This document shows, piece by piece, positions 50,409-64,000 of a stretch of 64,000 nt of DNA. The stretch covers positions 1 through 64,000 of the forward strand of contig CAMDLO010000002.1 of the NCBI GenBank assembly GCA_945901765.1, in the 5' to 3' direction. Source of the DNA: Cyanobium sp. NIES-981 (GTDB lineage Bacteria; Cyanobacteriota; Cyanobacteriia; PCC-6307; Cyanobiaceae). A model generated the notes under the pieces. It worked only from the letters and a program-made list of their open reading frames with translations. It did not search any database and was not told the origin of the DNA. Position 1 is the first letter of the stretch; the number at the start of each line of letters is the position of its first letter. The position numbers and the translations under genes are program-made.

Positions 50409-51347
50409 GTGACCACCACCAGCGCCGCCGATCCCCTGCCCTCCTGGCGGCCCGGTGCCGTCAAGCAGGCCCTGCTGGCCTTCGTGGCGGCGGTGAGCAG
50501 CGAGGGCTCGGATCGTTTCGTGCCGGAGCCGGAGCGGGTGGCGGTGTTCGACAACGACGGCACCCTCTGGCCGGAGCAGCCGCTGCCCTTCCAGGCGGCC
50601 TTCGCCTTCGCTGAGCTCCAGGGGGCGGTGCAGCGCCAGCCGGAGCTGGCCAGCGACCCGATGGTGCAGGCGGCCCTGGCCGGCGACATCGGCGCCCTGC
50701 TGGCCGGTGACCACTTCGACGGGCTGCTGCGGGTGATCGCCGTGAGCCATGCCGGCATGACCACCGAGGCCTTCGCCGCGGCGGTGGAAGCCTGGCTGGG
50801 CTCCGCCCGCCATCCCCAGCTGCAGCGGCCCTACGACGCCCTCACCTATGGGCCGATGCAGGAGGTACTGGCGCTGCTGCGGGCCCATCACTTCCGCAGC
50901 TTCATCGTGTCCGGCGGCGGCGCCGACTTCATGCGGGTGTGGGTGGAGCGGGTGTACGGCATCCCGCCGGAGCGGGTGGTGGGCTCCACCGGCCGCACCC
51001 ACTTTGAGCTGCGCGACGGCGCGCCGCTGCTGGTGAAGTCGCTCGACACCCTGTTCGTGAACGACGGCGCCGGCAAGCCGGCGGGCATCCACCAGTTCAT
51101 TGGTCGCCGGCCGCTGATGGCCTTCGGCAACAGAGATGGCGACCTGGCGATGCTGCAGTACACCACCATCAACAACCCGCGCCCGAGCTTCGGGTTGATC
51201 GTGCACCACACCGACGCCGAGCGGGAATTCGCCTACGACGCCGAAACCAGAAGCACCGGCCGGCTGGTGGAGGCCCTGCGCCAGGCCCCCGAGCGCGGCT
51301 GGCACGTGGTGGACATGGCCCGCGACTGGACGACGGTGTTTGCCTAG
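50409..51347 (+). CDS. HAD-family phosphatase
   Basis: 312-aa haloacid dehalogenase-like hydrolase. Motif I FDNDGTLWPEQ lies near residue 47, motif II IVSGGGADF near 163, the Lys in LLVKSLDTLF near 205, and motif III FGNRDGDLAM near 238. The arrangement resembles SerB-like/HAD-IB phosphatases, but the substrate is unknown. It is convergent with hsdR; the two stops interlock in CTAG (51344-51347). The codon pattern matches the core genome, marking the right edge of ordinary DNA before the defence locus. Confidence 0.8.
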   Translation: MTTTSAADPLPSWRPGAVKQALLAFVAAVSSEGSDRFVPEPERVAVFDNDGTLWPEQPLPFQAAFAFAELQGAVQRQPELASDPMVQAALAGDIGALLAGDHFDGLLRVIAVSHAGMTTEAFAAAVEAWLGSARHPQLQRPYDALTYGPMQEVLALLRAHHFRSFIVSGGGADFMRVWVERVYGIPPERVVGSTGRTHFELRDGAPLLVKSLDTLFVNDGAGKPAGIHQFIGRRPLMAFGNRDGDLAMLQYTTINNPRPSFGLIVHHTDAEREFAYDAETRSTGRLVEALRQAPERGWHVVDMARDWTTVFA

Positions 51348-54300
51348 GCGGCCAGCAGCGGCCGGGCCCGGTCGTTGATCAGCTGGAGCAGATCAAACAG
51401 CTGCTCCGCCTCCGCATCCGAGAACAGGCCTTCCGGGCCGGTGGGGGCCAGGTCGCTGAAGGGTGGGTCGTAGAGGCGGGCGGGATCCATGGCGCCGCGG
51501 CTGGTGAGTTCATCGATGATCTCGTTGATGAAGCGGATCTGGGTGGCGGTGTGGGTGCCCTCGGCCAGGTAGTCGGCAAACAGCTCCTTGGCGGCATTGC
51601 GATCGAGGCCCACCATGGAGCGGATGAACACCCCGAAGCCATTGCACTCCTCACGGGCACGCGCGATGGCCTGCTGATCGCCGATGCCATGGCTGATCAG
51701 GAACTGCTCCAGTTCGTTGAGATCGGCGGAGGTGAGGGGCTGGTTGCGGCGCAGGCGCTGCATGGTGAGGTGGTCGTCGTGCGCCCGCAGGAACTCGCGG
51801 GCCCGCAGGCGGAACTGCTGGAACTCGTCGCGGCTGAGCAGGGCGGCGGCATCGAGTTCGCGCAGCGCTCCGAGCTCGTCGGCGAAGTTGGTGTAGAGGG
51901 GTTCCCTGCTGATCGTTTCGATCAGACCCATCAGGCCCCGCAGGCGCCGCCGCGCTTCCTCGAGCATCGGCACGGTGACGTCCTGCCACCATTCATCGCG
52001 CAGTAGATCGCGAATCAGCTCCAGCTCGGCCGCCACCTGGGGAATGTTGGGCCGGGCCTCCAGCTGGGCGGCCAGCTCGCGGAGCTGCAGCTGGAGGCGC
52101 TGGAAGCGTGGCTCGCCGCGCAGCAAGGCGAGCTGCAGGTTGTAGAGGAGCAGATCGAAGCGGCGCGCGTCGGCATCGGTGTCGCCCTGCTGCTCGGCGT
52201 AGGCCGAGGGCAGGGGGGCCAGGGTGGCGGCGAGGGCCTGATAGTCATCGGGGCTGAGGCTGGCCCAGGCCTCATGGTTGCGGAAACGCTCCACAAGCTG
52301 CAGATGGGGTCGCACCAGAAAGTTGTCGGCCGGGCAGGCGGCCACATGGCAGCGCAGGAGTTCGGCGAGCGTGTGGCGATACAGCCCTAGAGCGTTGTCG
52401 TGATCGGCTGGCTGGCCGTCTCGCGAGGGAATGGCCATGCTGGGCACCGAAGGCAGGATCGAAAGCAGCCCTTTCTGGTCAATCGTGTCGATCAGCGCCA
52501 GGCGACTGCGGAACAGGCGAGTGCTGAGGCTTTCGGGCGCGGAAGTGGCCTCGGCGCCGCCCTGGCCGAGAAAGAATTCGAGGTTTTGGCAGAGATCGAA
52601 GATCCAGAAGCACTCCTTGTCGCGTCCAGGGCCAAATAAGCCCTTGCAGGTGCGGGTGCCGCGCCCCACCATCTGCCAGAACTTGGTGCGCGAACGCACC
52701 GGCTTGAAGAACACCAGGTTGACGATCTCCGGGATGTCGATGCCGGTGTCGAGCATGTCGACGGAGATGGCGATCCGTAGATCGCTGTCTGGATTGGAGA
52801 ACTCGTCAATGAGCGATTGGGCGTACTTCACCTGGTTGTCGATCACGCGGGCGGCCTTGCCGGCCAGGTGGGGGTAGTGGTGATCGAAGCGCTCGCGGAT
52901 GAACTCGGCATGCTTGTGGTTGCGCGCGAAGATCACGCTCTTGCCAAGGCGATCACCGGCGGCTTCGAGGCAGCCCTTGGTCATCAGCACCTGCAGCCCC
53001 TTGTCGACGGTGTCGGCGTTGAACAGCCAGGCGTTGACGGCGCCGGAATCCACACGGCCGGCGTTCTGCACGTTCTCCTCCCAGTCGAGCAGGTCCCACT
53101 GGGTCTTTTCCTCGTCGCTGAGGGCGGCATAGCTGATGCCCTCGCGCGGGAAGCGCAGCGGCACGGAGATGGGCTTGAAGGGCACCAGAAAGCCATCGGC
53201 GACGGCCTGATCGAGGCCGTACTCATCGGTGGGTAGGCCGATCTCTCGGTCGAAGAGCTCGTAGGTGTTGCGGTCGATCTCCTCGCGGGGCGTGGCGGTG
53301 AGACCGCTGAGCAGCGAATCGAAGTAGGCAAAGATCGCCCCGTACTTCTGATACACACTGCGGTGGGCCTCGTCGATGATCACCAGATCGAAGTGGCCCA
53401 CCCCAAAGCGCTTGACGCCGTGGGCATCCTCTGCATCGATGAGGTTCATCATCGTGGGGTAGGTGGAGAGGAACACGCGCCCCTCACCGCCCTTGTTGGT
53501 GACCAGATTCACCGGTGAGCAATCGGGCAGGAAGCGGCGAAAGGCCCGCTCGGCCTGGAGGACGAGGGAGGTGCGATCGGCGAGAAACAGCACCCGCTTC
53601 ACCCAGTTGCAACGGGTGAGCAGGTCGGTGAGCGAGATGGCGGTACGGGTCTTGCCGGTGCCGGTGGCCTGCACCAGCAGGGCTTTGCGCCGGCCCTGCT
53701 CCAGGGATTCACAGATCGCCCGGATCGCCCGCTGCTGGTAGTAGCGCCCGGCAATTGCGGTGGAGATGGTGGCCTGGGCAAGGGGCTGGCGGATCTCGCG
53801 GCGGCGGATCAGGGTTTCGAGCTCCTCCTTCTTGTAGAAACCCTGAACGTCCCGGGGTGGATAGCGCAGGTCATCCCAGAGGCGGTGCCGGTAGCCGTTG
53901 GAGAGAAAGATCAGGGGCCTCTGGCCGTAGCGCTGCTCGAGACAGTTGGCGTACAGCTCAGCCTGGCGCTGGCCTTCCATCGGATCGCGGCTGGTGCGCT
54001 TGGCTTCCACCAGGCCGAGCGGTTTGCCGTCGTCGCCCCAAAGCACGTAATCCACGAACCCTTGGCCCGTGGCATTGGGCATGCCCTGCACCTCGTGTTC
54101 ATGGGTGCAGCTCTGGCCGTGCACCCAGCCGGCTTCCTCGAGGTAGTGGTCGATGGTGGCGCGGCGGGTCTCGAATTCGCTAAGGTCGGGTTCGGGCTGG
54201 GCGGCAGCTTCATTGACCTTGCGCAGAGCGGTGATCTCCTGTCGCAGCCGATCGAGTTCTTCCTGGGAGGCCAGGGCGGCCAGGCGTTGATCGCGCAACT

Positions 54301-54820
54301 GGGCATCACGCTCGGCCAGCTGGTCCGCCAAGGCCTCCAGTTGTTCGCGGCTCTGGGCCTGTTGGGCGGTGGCGGCGTCACGGCTGGGCAGGAGATCGGC
54401 GTTGAAGCTGCAGCCCCGTACGCGATGGGGATCACGGCCATAGGTGAGCGCAAACCAGCGCAGCACCTGGAACAACTCCCGAGCAGCCAGCACGGCATCG
54501 CCAGGGCGGATCGGATCGCTGCGATGCACGGCCTTGTTGCCGAGGTCTTTGAGCAGGCGGAAGCGACGCATCTGCTCGCCCGCCACGTCGCAGAACACGC
54601 GTGCGTACATCAAATCCGCCAGGGTCTGGGCGGTCAACGGCCGCTCCAGCTGCCCGTCGTTGTCGTACACCCACTCCACCAGCAGCTCGATGGTGCGGCG
54701 GGCGTAGAAGCAGGCGGTGCGCGGATCGGAGAGAGCGAACTGCTCGACCTTCTGCGCCTCCTCGTGGAGCTCAGGCCATTGGCCTGCGATGAGGGCGTAC
54801 TGGGAAGAGACAGTGGTCAT
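51344..54820 (-). CDS. hsdR: Type I restriction enzyme, R subunit (HsdR)
   Basis: 1158-aa motor/nuclease subunit. Order: DUF4145-like N-terminus (ARRTIELLVEWVYD), a coiled-coil-like Gln/Glu stretch (residues 165-210), PD-(D/E)xK nuclease with DYVLWGDDGKPLGLVEAKR near 265, SF2 helicase motif I ATGTGKT near 390, DEAH near 485, LSGLTATP near 508, motif VI QMVGRGTR near 725, and an EcoEI-type C-terminal domain. All catalytic residues look intact. Start ATG 54820 overlaps the HEPN gene by 4 bp. It is the last gene of the restriction operon. Confidence 0.94.
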   Translation of the reverse strand: MTTVSSQYALIAGQWPELHEEAQKVEQFALSDPRTACFYARRTIELLVEWVYDNDGQLERPLTAQTLADLMYARVFCDVAGEQMRRFRLLKDLGNKAVHRSDPIRPGDAVLAARELFQVLRWFALTYGRDPHRVRGCSFNADLLPSRDAATAQQAQSREQLEALADQLAERDAQLRDQRLAALASQEELDRLRQEITALRKVNEAAAQPEPDLSEFETRRATIDHYLEEAGWVHGQSCTHEHEVQGMPNATGQGFVDYVLWGDDGKPLGLVEAKRTSRDPMEGQRQAELYANCLEQRYGQRPLIFLSNGYRHRLWDDLRYPPRDVQGFYKKEELETLIRRREIRQPLAQATISTAIAGRYYQQRAIRAICESLEQGRRKALLVQATGTGKTRTAISLTDLLTRCNWVKRVLFLADRTSLVLQAERAFRRFLPDCSPVNLVTNKGGEGRVFLSTYPTMMNLIDAEDAHGVKRFGVGHFDLVIIDEAHRSVYQKYGAIFAYFDSLLSGLTATPREEIDRNTYELFDREIGLPTDEYGLDQAVADGFLVPFKPISVPLRFPREGISYAALSDEEKTQWDLLDWEENVQNAGRVDSGAVNAWLFNADTVDKGLQVLMTKGCLEAAGDRLGKSVIFARNHKHAEFIRERFDHHYPHLAGKAARVIDNQVKYAQSLIDEFSNPDSDLRIAISVDMLDTGIDIPEIVNLVFFKPVRSRTKFWQMVGRGTRTCKGLFGPGRDKECFWIFDLCQNLEFFLGQGGAEATSAPESLSTRLFRSRLALIDTIDQKGLLSILPSVPSMAIPSRDGQPADHDNALGLYRHTLAELLRCHVAACPADNFLVRPHLQLVERFRNHEAWASLSPDDYQALAATLAPLPSAYAEQQGDTDADARRFDLLLYNLQLALLRGEPRFQRLQLQLRELAAQLEARPNIPQVAAELELIRDLLRDEWWQDVTVPMLEEARRRLRGLMGLIETISREPLYTNFADELGALRELDAAALLSRDEFQQFRLRAREFLRAHDDHLTMQRLRRNQPLTSADLNELEQFLISHGIGDQQAIARAREECNGFGVFIRSMVGLDRNAAKELFADYLAEGTHTATQIRFINEIIDELTSRGAMDPARLYDPPFSDLAPTGPEGLFSDAEAEQLFDLLQLINDRARPLLAA

Positions 54821-55194
54821 GACAGCTGACGTTCTACCTGCGTCAACAGCGAGGACGTGACGGCAAGAAGGAGCGGCCAATCGGGGGGGCTGATCTCCAG
54901 GCTGTCGTCGTAACGCGTCTGAACTGCGAAGAAAGTGAGATCAGCAATCCGTTCGAATGGACTGAGATCCGATCCCACTTCTTCCAGCCAGTCCATCAGG
55001 GCCATGATGTCGTGTGTGAAGGGTGCGAGCCCTCCACGGGAATGAATCCAGCTTTTGAGAGCCTTCTCGCAGGCCTGTTGCAACAGGAACCCGATGCTGC
55101 TGTCGCGGAACCCCGAAAGCTCAACCATGCGCTGCGCCTCGGCAAGATCGGCCTGGGCAATGCGGAGGTAGCGAATGGCGTCGGGATCAGCCAT
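54817..55194 (-). CDS. HEPN-domain protein (putative toxin of MNT/HEPN pair)
   Basis: 125-aa all-helical HEPN protein. QQACEKALKSWIHSRGG (near residue 42) and FTHDIMALMDWL (near 64) are the family hallmark, with an Arg and His positioned as in HEPN RNases, although the HepT RX4HXY signature is not exact. HEPN proteins paired with MNT nucleotidyltransferases act as toxin and antitoxin. It overlaps the MNT gene by 8 bp and hsdR by 4 bp, so it is embedded in the restriction operon. Confidence 0.85.
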   Translation of the reverse strand: MADPDAIRYLRIAQADLAEAQRMVELSGFRDSSIGFLLQQACEKALKSWIHSRGGLAPFTHDIMALMDWLEEVGSDLSPFERIADLTFFAVQTRYDDSLEISPPDWPLLLAVTSSLLTQVERQLS

Positions 55195-55540
55195 GCAGCA
55201 GGATTCCCTCCTCATAGGCGCGCGTGGTGACGGCGCTTCGATACTGCTGCCGTTGGTTCACTTCACTCTCGGAGTACAGCAGCAGATCGAGAGGAAGCCG
55301 ATGGCTGGAGAACTGGCGCCAGAGGGCCCCCAGTACACGCACCCGGTCATGGGTTGTCAGCCAGAGATCCGGCACGGTGATCAGCAGATCCACGTCGGAG
55401 TCGGGCCGGGCAGTGCCCCTGGCGCGGGATCCGAACAACCGCACCTGGGCCTCCGGGATGGCCGCTGCGATGCCGGCTGCCACGGTGCTGATCCGCGGAT
55501 CGATCGGGTTGGCAGTAGGAGTGGAGGTGGATTCGGTCAT
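55187..55540 (-). CDS. Minimal nucleotidyltransferase (MntA-like antitoxin)
   Basis: 117-aa nucleotidyltransferase-fold protein. The catalytic motif GSRARGTARPDSDVDLL (near residue 35) is complete (GSxAxG...SDxDL). PLDLLLYSESEVNQRQQ near 88 supplies the third acidic position. MntA antitoxins AMPylate and silence partner HEPN toxins. The ATG at 55540 was chosen; the frame is open to 55576 inside the preceding gene. It lies 13 bp after the DUF262 gene. Confidence 0.87.
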   Translation of the reverse strand: MTESTSTPTANPIDPRISTVAAGIAAAIPEAQVRLFGSRARGTARPDSDVDLLITVPDLWLTTHDRVRVLGALWRQFSSHRLPLDLLLYSESEVNQRQQYRSAVTTRAYEEGILLHG

Positions 55541-55553
55541 GGGGCCATTCTGG

Positions 55554-57695
55554 TCACGGACCTTCAGGTGCGTCATCCAGTTGTCGCTCCAGCGACTGGC
55601 GGATCAGGCCGAGGGCATAGGGAACTTCCTCCAGGCTGGAGATACCCAACTCCACCTCGCCATTGCCCCAGCGGCCGATGCCGGCGACGTTCTTGGCGAT
55701 GCCCCTGGGGTCGTCGAGCTCGGCGAAGGGCATGTTGAGGCTGAGGCGCAGCCGCTTGGCCTGGGGAACGATGTCAACGACGTTGGTCTCAGCCTTGTAG
55801 GCGATGTAGAGCTTGAGCACTTCCTGGCTCACGTTCGGGTCCAGAGCCCGGATGCGGACGTCCAACAGATCGAAGACCGCTCGGATCTGGGGGTTGGACA
55901 GCTGGGGATGGTCGTCGAGGGTGTAGCTGGCGACCTGGCTGCGGCTGGGTTGCCGGTAGGCCTGGCGCTGCTCCTCGCTCAGCTGGGGCGATGCCCACAC
56001 CTCCAAAGCGCGTGCGGCGAGGGTCTCCCCGCGCTGGCGCATGGCACCCACATCCCAGCGCTCCAGTTGGCCCAAGCCCTGGTTGAGGCGCAGGGGGCTT
56101 GTGCAGAAACCGCCCTCGGGGTGGTCGCGCTTGTCTGTGAAGGGCCGATCGCTGAGTTCGGGGTTGTAGCCGGTGAGGGTGAGGTTGCCGAGGCGGTGCA
56201 GCCACTCCTCCTGCAGCTGGGCCCACTCGGGGCCAAGCGCCTCGCGCCAGGCAGGGGAGAGGTCGGGGTTCTGGGGAAGGATGTGCTCGATCGTGTAGTC
56301 GGCCACGGCGATGGGCTCCTTGCGCTGGCGGTTCTCCAGGCGGCGGAGCCAGTAGCTGCAGCTCTTGTTGAACTTGTAGAGATTGCGGATCTGCAGGTCG
56401 CGGCGGAACTCCTCATCAGAAGGGAAGCGCCGGTAGGAAGGCAGATCGAGCAGGTGGGCCTTGAAGCTGGGCAGGTAGTGGCCTGCTTCGCGGCGCAGGG
56501 CACGGCTGAAGGTGGCGAAGGTTTTCTGCTGGGAGTTGGAGGGGATGGCGCAGACCGCCCGGCGGAACACGTAGGCCTCCAGCAGCCGCAGGGCTTCCAG
56601 CAGCTCATCGCGGCTGAGCAGGCCGGTTTGATGGTCGCCATAGAGCTCCAGCAGCAGGGGCGTGACCACGTTCACCTTGAGCTCCCGCAGGTCGTGGAAG
56701 GCCTCCTTGAGCTGGGGGTCAGGCTCCTGGCCGAGTGCCACGCGGCAATACCGGATGGCGGTGGTGTGCAGATCACGCAGCAATGCCTCGATGCCTGCTT
56801 CCGCGACGGCCGGCTTGCGTTCGTACTGCTTGAACACCTCGTAGACCAGATCGAGCCGGGGGACTTCGCCGGTCTTGAGTGTGAGGAAGTCGCGCATGAA
56901 GGCGCTGAACTCGTTGCCGCTGTAGGCCTCCTGCCCGAAGGCCAGCTCCATCGGCCGCCAGTGGAGGGTGTACAGCCGTTCCTGCAACTCGGGCGGCTGG
57001 CCCATCAGCACGTAGTTGCGGATCAGATCGGCCTGGGAGAGCTCCCGGCCGGTGGAGTTCATGCTTTCGAAGATCAGCTGGGGATTGTCCTGATCGCGGG
57101 AGAGGGCCACGTCCACCACCAACAGCTTGCTGATGCCACGGCAGACCACGGCCAGATCGGTGGTGGATGCGCGGAGTTGCTCCAGGAAGAACTGGTGGTT
57201 CTCCTGGATCCGGATGGAAGGCTCGGCTGGCAGTGCTGCAGCGGTGGGATCCACCAGCGCCATCAGGGTGGCGCGATCGGTGTCGGAGAGCAGCAGCTTG
57301 AAGCGCTTGTCGCCTTTCTGGTGCCGGCGGGTGAGGTAGGTCTCGCGGATGATGGCCGGAGCGAACTCCTCGATCGGCTCCTGCTGATCCACTGGCAGCC
57401 CATCGAGCACATCCGCCAGGGCGGTGAGCAGCAGGGTGACGGTGGTGAGCCGCTGCTGGCCATCGATCACCAGCTTGGGTGCCTGCACGGCGAGGTTGCC
57501 GAGGCCTTCATCGATGTGCACCACTGAGCCGATGAAGTGAACACCGATCTCATCGGTGGAACCAGCACGGAGGATGTCAGCCCAGAGCTGCTGGCATTCC
57601 TTGAGCGTCCAGGAATAAGTCCGCTGATAGATAGGGATGATGAACTGAGAGACGGCGCCCAGGATCTGGAGGAGTTTGGCTTCTGTGGCTTTCAT
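55554..57695 (-). CDS. DUF262/DUF1524 (GmrSD-like) nuclease
   Basis: 713-aa protein. The N-terminal DUF262 (ParB-like NTPase) domain has IPIYQRTYSW (near residue 20) and LVIDGQQRLTTV (near 74). A DUF1524 His-Me nuclease has YTIEHILPQNP (near 470) and LGNLTLTGYNPELSDRPF (near 505). A C-terminal DUF5655-like domain has RLRLSLNMPFAEL. GmrSD enzymes are type IV restriction systems that cut modified phage DNA. It overlaps hsdS by 4 bp, so it is coupled to the type I system rather than standing alone. Confidence 0.87.
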   Translation of the reverse strand: MKATEAKLLQILGAVSQFIIPIYQRTYSWTLKECQQLWADILRAGSTDEIGVHFIGSVVHIDEGLGNLAVQAPKLVIDGQQRLTTVTLLLTALADVLDGLPVDQQEPIEEFAPAIIRETYLTRRHQKGDKRFKLLLSDTDRATLMALVDPTAAALPAEPSIRIQENHQFFLEQLRASTTDLAVVCRGISKLLVVDVALSRDQDNPQLIFESMNSTGRELSQADLIRNYVLMGQPPELQERLYTLHWRPMELAFGQEAYSGNEFSAFMRDFLTLKTGEVPRLDLVYEVFKQYERKPAVAEAGIEALLRDLHTTAIRYCRVALGQEPDPQLKEAFHDLRELKVNVVTPLLLELYGDHQTGLLSRDELLEALRLLEAYVFRRAVCAIPSNSQQKTFATFSRALRREAGHYLPSFKAHLLDLPSYRRFPSDEEFRRDLQIRNLYKFNKSCSYWLRRLENRQRKEPIAVADYTIEHILPQNPDLSPAWREALGPEWAQLQEEWLHRLGNLTLTGYNPELSDRPFTDKRDHPEGGFCTSPLRLNQGLGQLERWDVGAMRQRGETLAARALEVWASPQLSEEQRQAYRQPSRSQVASYTLDDHPQLSNPQIRAVFDLLDVRIRALDPNVSQEVLKLYIAYKAETNVVDIVPQAKRLRLSLNMPFAELDDPRGIAKNVAGIGRWGNGEVELGISSLEEVPYALGLIRQSLERQLDDAPEGP

Positions 57696-58798
57696 CTGCC
57701 AGAATCTCCATGGAAAGTTGCATGCCGAAGTGCACCGCTAAGCCTCGAAGTCTGCCATGCAGATATCTCGGCCTGAGCAAGCTTGGCATCCAACGCAGCC
57801 AGCACTGATTCAAAGCGCTCCTGAAGATCCAGCGGAGGGAGGGGAACAGGAAGGGAATCAAGAGCTGATCTTGTCAACTTCGGCTGAGCCGAGCCCGTCA
57901 CAAAAGGCTTTAGATCAACAAGGCCAAAGTAGAACTCCAGGAAACGAAGCTTGGCTTTTCCGTTCTCGCCAAGAACATGGGCATGGTTATTAACCCAGTA
58001 CTTGCCATCTGCCATGAAGGCAATCGGGGATGAGCGGGCGATTAGATTCGCTCCGTCTTCACCTACCAGAAGCCTCCGCCCGTCAAACAAGTAGTCGTCG
58101 ACATGGTCGATAACCCCCGATGCACCGTAGTAGGGGTATCGACCTTGCATGGCTTTCCGATCGGAAGATTTTACGGGTACTCGCCTCGCGTCTTCGTTTA
58201 AGCAAATCTCGCCCAAGCGGAAAACAGGCCACTGAAAAGGATTGTGCCGAGGATCGCCAAACATTTGCCTGTAGACAGATAGCGGGAAAGCTTTCAGCAG
58301 ATTGTGTCTCCGCCTTTCAGCGCCGGAGAGCTCATCGGTCTTATCCAGGATCGCCGCGATGCGCCGCTGCTCCTCCAGTGGGGGGAGGGGGATTTGCGCA
58401 GATTTCAGCTTCGCAACCGAAAGATGTTTGACAGTGACAAATGGCGTCTCGTCTTCAATCTTCTTGAGAAGAATTGGGAGGAAGTGGTATAGGTAGGCAT
58501 CGTCTAAAAGGCTTTGTCTGGAAATGGCCTTGCAGACCCGCTGGTTGAGCAGGGCTGGATCACTTTTCCATCTCTCGCGATTGAACTCTCCATCCATTCC
58601 AATCAGGATGTCTCCCTTCTCGACTATGTATAGGGGTTGATAGTCACCGCTATAGAAAGTGGCGCTCGAACCTGGCAGGACGTCTCTAATCCGAATAATG
58701 GGCAATCCAATTGGCTCGGCCGAGAAAAAATCTGACTTGAACGCAAAGCCAGACAGAAAATCACAAACCTCACCAAGCTCAACAGTTGTCCGTTTCAT
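57692..58798 (-). CDS. hsdS: Type I restriction enzyme, S (specificity) subunit
   Basis: 368-aa specificity subunit with two target-recognition domains and two conserved coiled-coil repeats. TRD1 covers residues 1-140 (ELGEVCDFLSGFAFKS), followed by IPLPPLEEQRRIAAILDKTD. TRD2 covers about 190-330 (FRLGEICLNEDARR), followed by VPLPPLDLQERFESVLAALD. The base composition and codon use are clearly lower-GC than neighbours (many AT-ending codons), a sign of transfer or rapid TRD exchange. Its ATG overlaps a TGA that ends a duplicated hsdM tail. Confidence 0.93.
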   Translation of the reverse strand: MKRTTVELGEVCDFLSGFAFKSDFFSAEPIGLPIIRIRDVLPGSSATFYSGDYQPLYIVEKGDILIGMDGEFNRERWKSDPALLNQRVCKAISRQSLLDDAYLYHFLPILLKKIEDETPFVTVKHLSVAKLKSAQIPLPPLEEQRRIAAILDKTDELSGAERRRHNLLKAFPLSVYRQMFGDPRHNPFQWPVFRLGEICLNEDARRVPVKSSDRKAMQGRYPYYGASGVIDHVDDYLFDGRRLLVGEDGANLIARSSPIAFMADGKYWVNNHAHVLGENGKAKLRFLEFYFGLVDLKPFVTGSAQPKLTRSALDSLPVPLPPLDLQERFESVLAALDAKLAQAEISAWQTSRLSGALRHATFHGDSGR

Positions 58799-58915
58799 CG
58801 CAGCATCCCCTCCAGCTCCTCGATCCCCTGCAGGATCTCCTGCTCCTGCTCAATCGCCCGCAGTTCGGCCAGGATCTCCAGCGGTGGACGTTGCTCCACC
58901 TCTTCGTGGATCAGC
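58795..58915 (-). pseudogene. Duplicated 3' fragment of hsdM
   Basis: 121 bp nearly identical to the hsdM 3' end at 59595-59709 (six mismatches and one 6-bp indel). It encodes the same C-terminal tail, including HEEVEQRPPLEILAELRAI and the final LEGMLR stop. The stop overlaps the hsdS ATG (ATGA), showing how hsdM and hsdS were joined before the mazEF-like pair was placed between them. There is no start codon of its own. Confidence 0.85.
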
Positions 58916-58972
58916 CCAGGCCAGCAGCGCAAGCTCCGGCTAGGGTGACATGTAACCGTTGCGGGAGTCGCC

Positions 58973-59251
58973 ATGGGACCCGAATCCTCCCCGGAGCTGG
59001 GTTGCTCAGAGGCCACAGCCCAGGAGGCGCGACGTGCGGCCAATCGCCGCAAAGTGCGGGAGCACCGCCAGCGGTTGCGGGGCCAGGGGATGCGGCCGAT
59101 CCAGATCTGGGTGCCGGATGTGCATTCACCTGAGTTTGCCGCCGAAGCGCGGCGGCAGTGTCTGCTGGCCAATGCCAGCGAGGAGGAAACCGAAATCCAG
59201 GCTTTCATCGACTCGGTGTACGAGTGGCCGGACGACGAGACCAGCCGGTGA
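58973..59251 (+). CDS. mazE: MazE-family antitoxin (DUF3018)
   Basis: 92-aa antitoxin. The segment VREHRQRLRGQGMRPIQIWVPDVHSPEF (in two halves) is the DUF3018 signature of MazE-type antitoxins, and the acidic C-terminus (EEETEIQAFIDSVYEWPDDE) would wrap the toxin. The stop overlaps the mazF GTG by 4 bp (GTGA). It points opposite to the surrounding restriction genes and has its own likely promoter between 58916 and 58972. Confidence 0.85.
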   Translation: MGPESSPELGCSEATAQEARRAANRRKVREHRQRLRGQGMRPIQIWVPDVHSPEFAAEARRQCLLANASEEETEIQAFIDSVYEWPDDETSR

Positions 59252-59577
59252 AGCGCGGTGAGATCTGGACCATCGCCGGCGGCTCCGGCTATGCCAGCAA
59301 GCTCCGCCCTGTGGTGATTGTTCAGGACGACGCCTTTACCGCCCGCGACTCCGTGACGGTGTGTCTGATCACGACCGACCCGTCTGATCTGCCGGTCTTT
59401 CGCGTCCCCGTCGAGCCCACAACGGAGAACGGTCTGCGAGCCCTCAGCCGCCTGATGGTCGACAAGGTCACCACTGTGTCCAGAAGCCGCCTGGGCCAGT
59501 GCATCGGCTGCCTTGCGGATGACGACCTTCTGCGGCTCAACCGCTCGTTGCTGGTGTTTCTGGGCCTGGCCCGCTGA
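59248..59577 (+). CDS. mazF: MazF-family endoribonuclease toxin
   Basis: 109-aa PemK/MazF-fold RNase. VKRGEIWTI at the start, then KLRPVVIVQDD near residue 20 and RALSRLMVDKVTTVSRSRLG near 70 are typical. The conserved Arg and Thr of the active site appear in RPVVIV and ITTDPSD. Starts with GTG overlapping the mazE stop. The 17-bp gap to hsdM on the opposite strand leaves the two stops convergent. Confidence 0.87.
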   Translation: MKRGEIWTIAGGSGYASKLRPVVIVQDDAFTARDSVTVCLITTDPSDLPVFRVPVEPTTENGLRALSRLMVDKVTTVSRSRLGQCIGCLADDDLLRLNRSLLVFLGLAR

Positions 59578-59594
59578 TCGCGCTTGCGTGCCTC

Positions 59595-61478
59595 TCATCG
59601 CAGCATCCCCTCCAGCTCCTCAATCCCCTGCAGGATTTCCTGCTCGATCGCCCGCAGTTCAGCCAGGATCTCCAGCGGTGGCCGGTGCTCCACCTCTTCG
59701 TGGATCAGCTCCTTGTAGCGGTTGAGGCTGAGGTCGTAGCCCTGCTCGGCGATTTCCGCCTTGGGCACGCAGAAACTCTGGGCGGTGCGTTCCCTATCTC
59801 GCTCGGCATCCTTGCGCTGCCGCCAGCGGACCAGGCAGTCGGGGAGGTTGTTCTTCTCGTGCTCTCCCTCGGCCAGGGCTTCCTTGGGAGCGGGGCCCAG
59901 CTTTTCCAGCGGCAGCAGTGGATTGCGCTTGTCGTCGAGGCTCCAGCCGTCGGCCGTCATGTCGTAGAACCACACCTGATCTGTGCCGCCGCGGCCGGTT
60001 TTGGTGAAGAACAGGATCGCCGTGCTTACGCCGGCATAGGGGCGGAACACACCGCTGGGCAACGACACCACGCCCTCCAGGAAATGGTCTTCCACCAGGG
60101 TGCGACGCAATTCCTTGTGGGCCTTGCTGGAGCCGAACAGCACCCCATCGGGCACGATCACCGCCGCCCGGCCGCCGGGTTTGAGCAGCTGCAGGAACAG
60201 GGCCATAAACAGCAGCTCGGTTTTTTTCGTCTTCACCACCCGCTGCAGCTTGCCGCTGGTGCTCTCGTAATCCAGGGATCCGGCGAAGGGTGGATTGGCC
60301 AGGATCAAGGTGTACCTGTCCTGCTCATCGGCGCCGTCTTCTGAGAGCGAATCGCGGTAGCTCACATCGGGGTTCTCCACCCCGTGCAGCAGCATGTTCA
60401 TTGCCCCGATGCGCAGCATCGTGGTGTCGAAGTCGAAGCCATGGAACAGGCCATGGTTGAAGTGCTCGCGCAGCTCCGGATCGCTGAGCACCTCGGGGTG
60501 GTGCTCGCGCAGGTATTCGCCCACCGCCACCGGGAAGCCGCAGGTGCCGCAGGCCGGATCCACCATCACGTCCCGCGGCGTGGGCTCGGTCATCGCCACC
60601 ATCAGCTCGATGATGTGGCGCGGCGTGCGGAACTGGCCGTTGGTGCCGGCGGTGGCAAGCTTGCCGAGCATGTACTCGTAGATGTCGCCCTTGGTGTCGC
60701 GGTCCTCCATCGGCACCGCATCAAGCAGCTCCACCACCTTGGTGAGCAGCCCCGGCGTTGGAATCGTGAAGCGGGCATCGCGCATGTGGGTGGCGTAGGC
60801 CGATTCCTCACCGCCCAGCTCGCGCAGGAACGGGAACACCCGCTCGCCCACCACCTTGAACATCGAAGCGGCCTCGCCCAGCTCCTTGAAGCGGCTCCAG
60901 CGCAGTTCGCTCCAGGGGCGGCCCTGCTCATCAGCCCCCTCCGGGAAAATGCGGCGGCGCATCGGCTGCTCGGCTCGCTGGCTGCGGCGCTCCTCCAGGG
61001 TTTCCAGTTCATCCAGCCGGCGGATGAACAGCAGATAGGTGAGCTGCTCCAGCACCTCCAGCGGGTTGGCGATGCCGCCGCTCCAGAAGGCATCCCAGAT
61101 CCGGTCGATCTGATTTCGGAGTTCCCCCGTGAGCACCGAGGCCGCTGTGGTGCCGGGGGCGATGGCGGATTGGGGGGCTGGCGCGGCTGAGCCGTTACCG
61201 CTGCGACGGGTGCGGGAGCCTGCGGCTGGAGCAGCAGCTCGCGGAGGCGGGTCGATCCCCGGCGCTCTCAGGCCTCCGCCGGGGCCTTTCACACCCTCCG
61301 CTGCGCCCAGGGCCACCACCTGGTTCTTGAGCTCCTTGAGCTCCTCATCGCTGATGGACTCTCCCGACTCCCGCTCCAGGGCAGCGCGAATCTCGTCGTT
61401 CGTGATCCGGCTGCCGTCCTCTGGGATGAGAGCGATCAGGTCGTTGACGAGGTCAGCGAGGTCGGCGAGGGGGGGCAT
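59595..61478 (-). CDS. hsdM: Type I restriction enzyme, M (methyltransferase) subunit
   Basis: 627-aa N6-adenine methyltransferase. SAM-binding motif I is DPACGTCGF near residue 305 and catalytic motif IV is NPPF near 400. An HsdM N-terminal helical domain covers about residues 110-240 (LRNQIDRIWDAFWSGGIANPLEVLEQL). The start at ATG 61478 gives MPPLADLADLVNDL; the frame is open further upstream. Residues 60-105 form an unusual Gly/Pro/Ala-rich linker. The gene lies 86 bp downstream of the PdeM-like gene and its 3' end is duplicated beside hsdS. Confidence 0.94.
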   Translation of the reverse strand: MPPLADLADLVNDLIALIPEDGSRITNDEIRAALERESGESISDEELKELKNQVVALGAAEGVKGPGGGLRAPGIDPPPRAAAPAAGSRTRRSGNGSAAPAPQSAIAPGTTAASVLTGELRNQIDRIWDAFWSGGIANPLEVLEQLTYLLFIRRLDELETLEERRSQRAEQPMRRRIFPEGADEQGRPWSELRWSRFKELGEAASMFKVVGERVFPFLRELGGEESAYATHMRDARFTIPTPGLLTKVVELLDAVPMEDRDTKGDIYEYMLGKLATAGTNGQFRTPRHIIELMVAMTEPTPRDVMVDPACGTCGFPVAVGEYLREHHPEVLSDPELREHFNHGLFHGFDFDTTMLRIGAMNMLLHGVENPDVSYRDSLSEDGADEQDRYTLILANPPFAGSLDYESTSGKLQRVVKTKKTELLFMALFLQLLKPGGRAAVIVPDGVLFGSSKAHKELRRTLVEDHFLEGVVSLPSGVFRPYAGVSTAILFFTKTGRGGTDQVWFYDMTADGWSLDDKRNPLLPLEKLGPAPKEALAEGEHEKNNLPDCLVRWRQRKDAERDRERTAQSFCVPKAEIAEQGYDLSLNRYKELIHEEVEHRPPLEILAELRAIEQEILQGIEELEGMLR

Positions 61479-61564
61479 CGGCGGGCGAGCGGGCAAACCT
61501 GGGCAGAGCATGGCCTGGGAGGCCCCCTTGTGCAGCGGTTCTGCTGCGAAGGACGGGCTGAGGT

Positions 61565-62227
61565 TCAGGCCGCTCGCCTGGTTTCTGGTGATATGGCCAG
61601 CACAATCCCCTCCGCCACCAGCCACTGGCGCTCATGGGCCGGCAGCGGCATGCCGCCCGTGAGCGCCCCGAAGGCGGGCAGGGCCAGGCGCTCGCTGCGC
61701 GGGCAGTAGCTGAAACAGCTCAGCCGCAGGCGGTCGCCGTTGCGACCCAGCAACGCCACCGGGTGCAGGTGGCCGCAGAGGTTGAGCAGGCCGGCGCGGG
61801 GTTCGGGCTCGTGGCTGAGCCACCAGGGGCCGAGGGCCTGGCTGGGCTCCTGGGCCAGGCCGGCGATCCAGCTGCCCCGCTCGTGGTTGCCGCCGATCAG
61901 CCGCAGCGGGCAGCCCAGCAGCGCCGGCAGGGCCGCCAGCTTGGCGCGCAGCTCGCCCGTGAGTCCCAGGCGGCCGTGGATCAGGTCGCCCAGCACAATC
62001 ACCTGCGCCGGCTGCAGCCGCGTCGCCAGTTCCAGCAAGGCGTTGAGGGTGGCGGCGTCGCCATCGCTGGGCAGGGGGATGCCCTGGGCCTGGAAGCTCT
62101 CGGCCTTGCCCAGGTGCAGGTCGGCCAGCAGCAGCGTGCGCCGCAGGGGATCCCACACCGCCCGCTCAGCCAGCAGCTCCAGCTGCTCACCGCCCCAGCG
62201 GAACGGGGCCGATGCCGGCCCGCTCAC
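61565..62227 (-). CDS. Metallophosphoesterase, PdeM-like
   Basis: 220-aa calcineurin-fold phosphoesterase of the ligase-associated (PdeM/YkuE-like) branch. Metal-binding motifs in order: LLLADLHLGK near residue 32, VLGDLIHGR near 75, GGNHERGS near 108, and LCGHLHPVA near 148. Bacterial PdeM normally stands beside a DNA ligase and Lhr helicase; here the neighbour is a GST. GTG start at 62227 overlaps the GST stop by 4 bp (GTGA). Confidence 0.85.
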   Translation of the reverse strand: MSGPASAPFRWGGEQLELLAERAVWDPLRRTLLLADLHLGKAESFQAQGIPLPSDGDAATLNALLELATRLQPAQVIVLGDLIHGRLGLTGELRAKLAALPALLGCPLRLIGGNHERGSWIAGLAQEPSQALGPWWLSHEPEPRAGLLNLCGHLHPVALLGRNGDRLRLSCFSYCPRSERLALPAFGALTGGMPLPAHERQWLVAEGIVLAISPETRRAA

Positions 62228-62957: not shown

Positions 62958-64000
62958 ATGGCGAGCACGTCCCCTGCCGGTCCCGCCGCCGACAGTCAGG
63001 CCTGCCTGCTCAAGCTGGCGCCCCACCTGCTGGGCCGCTCCCGCCGCGGGGTAGTGGGCAGCAGCCGCTACGCCGACCGCCTGCGCGCCGCCGTGCGTGA
63101 CGCCGCCGCCGACCCCGCAGCCCGGCCGGTGCTGATCAGCGGCGAGCCGGGGCTGGAGAAAGACAACCTCGCCGCTCTGATCCATTTCGGCAGCCCGCAG
63201 CGGCGGCGGCTGATGGCCCGCGTCGATGCCGCCAGCCTGGGGGACGACGGCGCACCCCTGTTCGGCCCGGCCTCCAGCGGCGGCGCTGGCTCCCTGCTGG
63301 AGTGCCTGGGCGACGGCGCCCTGCTGATCGACAACCTCGATTGCGCCGATCCGGCCCTGCTGCCCCAGCTGCTGGAGCTGGCCCGCAGCGGCCGCTGGGG
63401 GGGGCCTGGCGGCACGGGGCCCATGCGCCGCTTCAGCGGCCGCCTGTTCGTCACCACCGAATCGGCGCAGCCGGCCTTCGACGGCTGCTGCACCCTGATC
63501 CGGGTGCCACCGCTGCGGGTGCGCCGGCAGGACCTGGGCGAGTGGCTGCGTTACAGCAGCCGTCAGCAGGCACGCCGGTTCGGCTGGCGACGGGCGCCGG
63601 CGATCAGCGAGGCAGCGGTGAAACGGCTGCAGAACCACGACTTCCCGGGCAACATCCGCGAGCTCGACCTGCTGATGCAGCGGGCCCTGCGCCAGTGCGG
63701 AAGCGAGAGGCCGGTGCTGCTGCCCGACGATGTGTTCTGGACCGGCAGCCGCGCCAGCCGCCTGCGCGTCGATCTGTTCCGCTGGCGCCCACGCCTGCGC
63801 CAGTGGCTGCGGGCTCCGGCGCTCTGGAACCTGCTGCTGTTCGGCCTGGTGAGCTGGGTGTTCGTGCTGGTGAACCTGTGGCTGTGGCTGGGGCCGCAGG
63901 ACCGGGCCCACAACGGCGCCCTCACTGTCTTCTGGGCCTGGTGGTGGCCGTTGATCCTGCTGGCCTATCCCGTCGTGGGGCGGCTGTGGTGCTCCTTCTG
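62958..64000 (+). CDS. NtrC-like AAA domain fused to membrane 4Fe-4S protein (3' end outside window)
   Basis: 347 codons visible. Residues 30-260 resemble the sigma-54 activator AAA domain. The Walker A site is degenerate (GEPGLEKD in place of GExGxGKE), Walker B reads LLIDNLD rather than LxxDE, and the GAFTGA loop is replaced by FGPASSG. FPGNIRELDLL near 230 is a typical C-subdomain motif. Two hydrophobic helices follow (from about 291 and 324), ending with GRLWCSFC, the start of a NapH/NosR/FixG-type polyferredoxin motif. Cyanobacteria lack sigma-54, so the AAA domain probably has another role. The end lies beyond the window. Confidence 0.75.
   Translation, partial: MASTSPAGPAADSQACLLKLAPHLLGRSRRGVVGSSRYADRLRAAVRDAAADPAARPVLISGEPGLEKDNLAALIHFGSPQRRRLMARVDAASLGDDGAPLFGPASSGGAGSLLECLGDGALLIDNLDCADPALLPQLLELARSGRWGGPGGTGPMRRFSGRLFVTTESAQPAFDGCCTLIRVPPLRVRRQDLGEWLRYSSRQQARRFGWRRAPAISEAAVKRLQNHDFPGNIRELDLLMQRALRQCGSERPVLLPDDVFWTGSRASRLRVDLFRWRPRLRQWLRAPALWNLLLFGLVSWVFVLVNLWLWLGPQDRAHNGALTVFWAWWWPLILLAYPVVGRLWCSF

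Follow-up and report, generated by a model that had tools for sequence, protein, structure and literature searches.

What could a cyanobacterial protein do that carries the AAA domain of an NtrC-type activator at one end and a membrane polyferredoxin at the other? A gene of this kind lies at the edge of the window, the stretch of 64,000 bases that we analysed, which forms the first part of contig CAMDLO010000002.1 (67,147 bases) in a draft Cyanobium genome of 2.46 Mb and 94% completeness. The gene begins with an ATG at 62958 on the + strand, and its frame is still open at 64000, where the window ends (62958..64000, +). On the full contig it continues to position 65051 (L008 2958-5051) as a single frame of 697 codons without internal stop or frameshift; a truncated or frameshifted gene, which the initial annotation had raised as a way its reading might fail, is thus ruled out. 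Along the protein, a degenerate NtrC-type AAA domain is followed by an AAA lid and then by a multi-helix membrane polyferredoxin: AAA_lid_14 and, in the full protein, Fer4_5 (PF12801) score above their Pfam cut-offs, and Sigma54_activat falls just under its own (20.1 against 20.2 bits). The architecture is not a product of chance, as 25 of 40 related genomes, including all 12 sampled congeners, hold the gene and dN/dS stays below 0.5 in all domains. One frame, the domain matches and these relatives establish that the fusion proposed from the window's letters is real.

Elsewhere the window contains an apparent type I restriction-modification island (51344-61625, mostly on the - strand), made up of an HsdR-like ORF named from its own sequence only (51344-54880), nucleotidyltransferase-like and partner ORFs (54817-55576, with a PADLOC match for 55187-55576) and, each matched by PADLOC, a DUF262/Orf5-type ORF (55554-57695), HsdS (57692-58798) and HsdM (59595-61625). 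The 3' end of hsdM is duplicated at 58788-58915 and 59588-59709 (72 nt at 94% and 58 nt at 91%). Between the repeats lie two small + strand ORFs, 58973-59251 and 59158-59577; one resembles an antitoxin, the other a toxin of the PemK/MazF type, and the arrangement looks as though a cassette had entered between the hsdM and hsdS genes.

A large unnamed cyanobacterial family

A profile search of the class found family members in 201 of 291 genomes (~70%) and 101 of 131 genera, so that the distribution, which the initial annotation had asked about, proved to be wide. Among named genomes, a scan turned up relatives in Nostoc, Leptolyngbya, Phormidium, Thermosynechococcus, Xenococcus and many more, and the best two plasmid matches came from Aulosira laxa and Pseudanabaena galeata; those listed genomes of genus g29 that measure 1.6-1.7 Mb lacked the gene. 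We found no functional study of the family in the open-access literature. The Aulosira relative is annotated as a 'nitrogen assimilation regulatory protein', the name that Synechocystis transcriptome papers give to slr1529 (ntrX in one of them), a gene with less transcript after high copper and with largely negative entries in a table on iron deprivation (PMC4182526, PMC3516471); slr1529 is a lead to a family member by this product name only. Broken copies also occur: one genome (G007) has a split gene, two others have one (G016) or two (G003) TGA codons within it (L022/L038, L024, L026), and the Pseudanabaena plasmid pPg_02 carries a fragment (L146).

The family falls into two subfamilies. 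In subfamily I, to which the window gene belongs, a pseudo-Walker A motif is conserved, mostly as GEPGLEKDN, and subfamily II has an intact P-loop, for example AQPGTGKTF. Subfamily II split off with full support in a tree where long branches meet, which leaves the root and the deep nodes uncertain. Most members begin with an N-terminal CRP-like domain that the group of the window gene does not have, and a hidden upstream domain is ruled out for the window gene by an open frame of only 701 codons. Domain searches likewise placed cNMP_binding (PF00027) above its cut-off in two subfamily II plasmid proteins and found it absent from the window protein. In a reading of the ligand pocket that covered part of the rows, the canonical cyclic-nucleotide motifs FGE and PRxAT were both missing from the subfamily I rows; in the subfamily II rows PRxAT was missing and GY stood where GE is expected. 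With the canonical residues absent from every readable pocket, cAMP cannot be taken for granted as a ligand.

The membrane half and its genomic surroundings

Downstream of the AAA part, hydropathy predicts two membrane helices within the window: residues 292-310 (63831..63887, +), with a helix at the matching place in a relative's structure model, and residues 322-340 (63921..63977, +), which include a nearly invariant FWAWWWP motif. They are followed by GRLWCxxC, a CX2CP motif formed by Cys345 and Cys348 (63978..64000, +) and present in 105 of 105 relatives; the last base of the Cys348 codon lies beyond the window. The two helices and the GRLWCSFC motif of the initial annotation are therefore present as described. 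Ten further conserved cysteines lie past the window edge. Across the 105 near-full-length relatives, Cys345, 348, 431, 435, 459, 463, 468, 484, 499, 502 and 505 are invariant and Cys509 is kept in 104. These twelve residues form the motifs CX2CP, CX3CP, CX3CX4C...CP and CX2CX2CX3CP, that is, two membrane-proximal CXnCP motifs and two [4Fe-4S] motifs of variant spacing.

Such near-invariance fits electron transfer, for which NapH-like proteins offer a precedent, as electron transfer from quinol to partner redox centres is supported for them (PMC5928378, PMC8238504). Several further lines of sequence evidence point the same way: firstly, the twelve cysteines are held in 104-105 of 105 relatives while the nucleotide-binding motifs vary; secondly, the membrane half matches Fer4_5 above its cut-off and NapH models weakly; thirdly, median dN/dS is lowest in the iron-sulfur and membrane-helix part, at 0.17 against 0.36 for the AAA region (Nei-Gojobori estimates, which are rough on GC-rich genes). 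Against an electron-transfer role, the score for NapH orthology (NCBIfam TIGR02163) falls far short of its cut-off, at 32.6 against 213 bits; neither sequence nor fold searches of solved structures returned a recognisable relative of the membrane half; subfamily I has no conserved partner; and the ferredoxin segment was poorly modelled in the predicted structure of a Thermosynechococcus relative, L085. No second Fer4_5 gene was found in the window's own genome.

Two homologues outside the family count in favour of the electron-transfer reading. A stand-alone 4Fe-4S protein of Deinococcus ficus (L145) keeps all twelve cysteines, and neither this protein nor the preceding ORF matched an AAA or CRP-like domain; the membrane module can therefore exist alone. 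A partial match on a Rhizobium plasmid (L152) adjoins FTR1, covers only 46% of the Deinococcus query and owes its FtrD name to gene order. Weaker relatives of the membrane half occur in haloarchaea, in Sulfurovum and in this Rhizobium FTR1 cluster. On the Sulfurovum plasmid (L151 5064-10294) the genes after the 4Fe-4S homologue encode another 4Fe-4S protein and a 2-hydroxyacyl-CoA dehydratase with its activase.

The neighbourhood of the gene differs between the subfamilies. Cysteine synthase occurs in 12 of 21 subfamily II loci and in 2 of the 88 remaining loci (Fisher p = 7e-9, uncorrected, with related genomes that are not independent), and in 8 of the 12 it starts less than 50 bases downstream on the same strand; of the two other loci, one (L144) is itself a fragment, with cysteine synthase after it. 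Genes for a Rieske protein, a thioredoxin-like protein, an ArsP permease, DsrE, a rhodanese, a Tll0287-like protein, a nitronate monooxygenase or a PsbA copy are found at some of the subfamily II loci as well. Six loci (L009, L010, L040, L042, L052 and L054) combine cysteine synthase with varied sets of Rieske, thioredoxin-like, DsrE, rhodanese, Tll0287-like and PsbA genes. Such company points to sulfur or low-oxygen islands, both plasmid-borne and chromosomal, and a link to cysteine synthase and to redox or sulfur genes would suit an electron-transfer protein. Around subfamily I, by comparison, we found no conserved neighbour: the commonest close same-strand neighbour appears in 5 of 87 loci, and no partner oxidoreductase is conserved beside them. 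Co-occurrence with cytochrome bd, judged by eye, showed no pattern; cydA is missing from the window's own genome and is present without a family member in genomes such as G027, G031, G032, G037 and G039.

The main rival to electron transfer, to which we give perhaps one chance in a handful, is a membrane redox sensor, in which the iron-sulfur half would read quinone, oxygen or iron status and the pseudo-AAA head, with the CRP-like domain where there is one, would signal to a soluble partner, bulk electron flow not being the function. Regulatory-type domains fused to a redox module, a strongly conserved pseudo-Walker motif and the lack of any conserved enzyme neighbour in subfamily I all suit a sensor; the headless stand-alone homologue speaks against one, as does a domain search that found no HTH, kinase or cyclase output domain. 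Sequence cannot decide between the two readings. The claim that this might be a redox-sensing or electron-transfer protein that reused an AAA domain is supported by these comparisons, and we favour electron transfer with a regulatory head.

The AAA head and the absence of sigma-54

If the membrane half carries electrons, what does the AAA head contribute? Its motifs were surveyed in the same 105 relatives, and family members were aligned with three canonical sigma-54 activators from plasmid records. The pseudo-Walker A motif GEPGLEKDN (residues 62-70; 63141..63167, +) occurs in 55 of 70 subfamily I rows and in 9 of 15 rows of the group without an N-terminal domain. The lysine is kept, the preceding glycine is usually glutamate and the Ser/Thr position is aspartate, as they are in the window protein; an intact Walker A is confined to subfamily II. 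The GAFTGA loop is deleted after LFG (residues 101-103; 63258..63290, +) and was found in 0 of 105 relatives. Walker B has degenerated to GALLIDNLD (63315..63341, +), with the catalytic glutamate changed to asparagine, and this glutamate is replaced in the aligned members of both subfamilies. FREDLYYRLN, the arginine-finger segment of true activators, has been deleted at 63477..63500 (+), and the segment is missing from every family member of the alignment. The lid domain PF25601 persists above its Pfam cut-off (residues 187-249; 63516..63704, +). A C-terminal Fis-type DNA-binding or HTH domain is absent from the aligned members, whose membrane domain occupies that place. The altered Walker motifs and the lost GAFTGA that the initial annotation had read are thus borne out, and by these alignments every feature of an enhancer-binding activator except the fold is lost.

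The fold itself is predicted to be of the NtrC type still. An AlphaFold2 model of the relative L085, taken in place of the full window protein, has a mean pLDDT of 85.7 and a TM-score of 0.82 to NtrC1; over the AAA domain, the NtrC1 and PspF structures both reach about 0.8. That the head is a decaying leftover without a function of its own seems to us unlikely: all its catalytic motifs are gone, and the window lineage is without the CRP-like domain too, but the altered motif is conserved across the class and the AAA region has a dN/dS of 0.18-0.27 in five close pairs (the median of 0.36 being that over all pairs). Wide conservation of the altered motif, together with purifying selection on the region, makes the head look like a pseudo-enzyme domain that is being maintained rather than one in decay.

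Equally doubtful is an ATP-driven activase whose AAA head would energise or remodel the redox module. The intact P-loop of subfamily II and the activase gene near the distant Sulfurovum 4Fe-4S homologue could be taken in its favour, but neither subfamily has the Walker B glutamate or the arginine-finger segment, and the P-loop of the window protein has glutamate for glycine and aspartate for Ser/Thr.

We found no sigma-54 DNA-binding domain in the window's own genome (94% complete), and among the 291 genomes of the class 4 gave short fragments near the threshold, one of them just over the cut-off; the same profile detected sigma-54 in four well-known genomes, including those of Escherichia coli and Bacillus subtilis. 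In a 2011 survey of 29 cyanobacteria, both sigma-54 and the activators that serve it were reported absent (PMC3162934). Sigma-54 is thus effectively absent from the class, as the initial annotation had stated, and a missed sigma-54 is rejected by both searches. With GAFTGA, the arginine-finger segment, the Walker B glutamate, the HTH and sigma-54 all missing, the further claim that this is no normal enhancer-binding activator holds. A membrane-tethered transcription regulator that works without sigma-54, by analogy to TyrR or VpsR, is the least probable reading of all: its AAA domain is of the activator family, a relative bears a nitrogen-regulator name and sigma-54-independent descendants of such activators are known (PMC3162934), but the C-terminal Fis/HTH domain has given way to a membrane domain and no DNA-binding family was matched in the window protein.

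A proposed regulated electron-transfer protein and its known counterparts

Together, these observations lead us to favour, with somewhat better than even confidence, a membrane quinone-linked iron-sulfur electron-transfer protein of the NapH/NosR/FtrD kind, whose dead AAA head would act as a scaffold for oligomerisation or regulation. The CX2CP/CX3CP membrane module and two [4Fe-4S] clusters, which we infer to be occupied, would relay electrons between the plastoquinone pool and a partner in the cytosol or the membrane. The cytoplasmic head, presumably a catalytically dead NtrC-type AAA domain that in most cyanobacteria follows a CRP-like domain with a non-canonical ligand pocket, would hold an oligomer together, dock the partner or let a ligand gate the flow of electrons; it would neither hydrolyse ATP nor contact sigma-54 or DNA. 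Because the head is itself conserved, it may instead be the main output and not an accessory.

More speculatively, and with odds that we put clearly below even, the family could be one of regulated electron valves, in which a dead ring of the enhancer-binding-protein type, with or without a CRP-like ligand sensor, controls how electrons are exchanged between plastoquinone in its pool and iron-sulfur partners in the cytosol, subfamily II being a sulfur-linked version on plasmids and accessory islands. If exchange with the plastoquinone pool is under ligand control, a protein encoded by about 70% of the sampled cyanobacterial genomes, one relative of which bears a nitrogen-regulator name, would control photosynthetic and respiratory electron flow at a point that has so far been overlooked, and an activator AAA domain would have been kept by selection after losing its catalytic and sigma-54-contacting elements.

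Compared with known systems, the protein resembles NapH, NosR and RdhC-type proteins (PF12801) in its membrane helices, its two CXnCP motifs and its Fer4_5 score, and NapH and NosR also in having [4Fe-4S] motifs after the CXnCP motifs. It differs from them in a first motif that is CX2CP and not CX3CP, in an atypical first ferredoxin motif (CX3CX4C...CP), in additional C-terminal helices and an N-terminal pseudo-AAA head, and in falling short of the NapH NCBIfam cut-off. The membrane module is homologous to those of the Deinococcus ficus protein, which has neither an AAA nor a CRP-like head, and of the Rhizobium FtrD-like protein. The head shares the AAA fold and lid domain of the NtrC-type activators PspF, NtrC1 and NtrX; unlike them, the family has no GAFTGA, arginine-finger segment, Walker B glutamate or HTH, and the window's own genome no sigma-54. 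TyrR, VpsR and DhaR have activator-type AAA domains that likewise no longer serve sigma-54; where these end in a DNA-binding domain, the cyanobacterial family ends in a membrane redox module.
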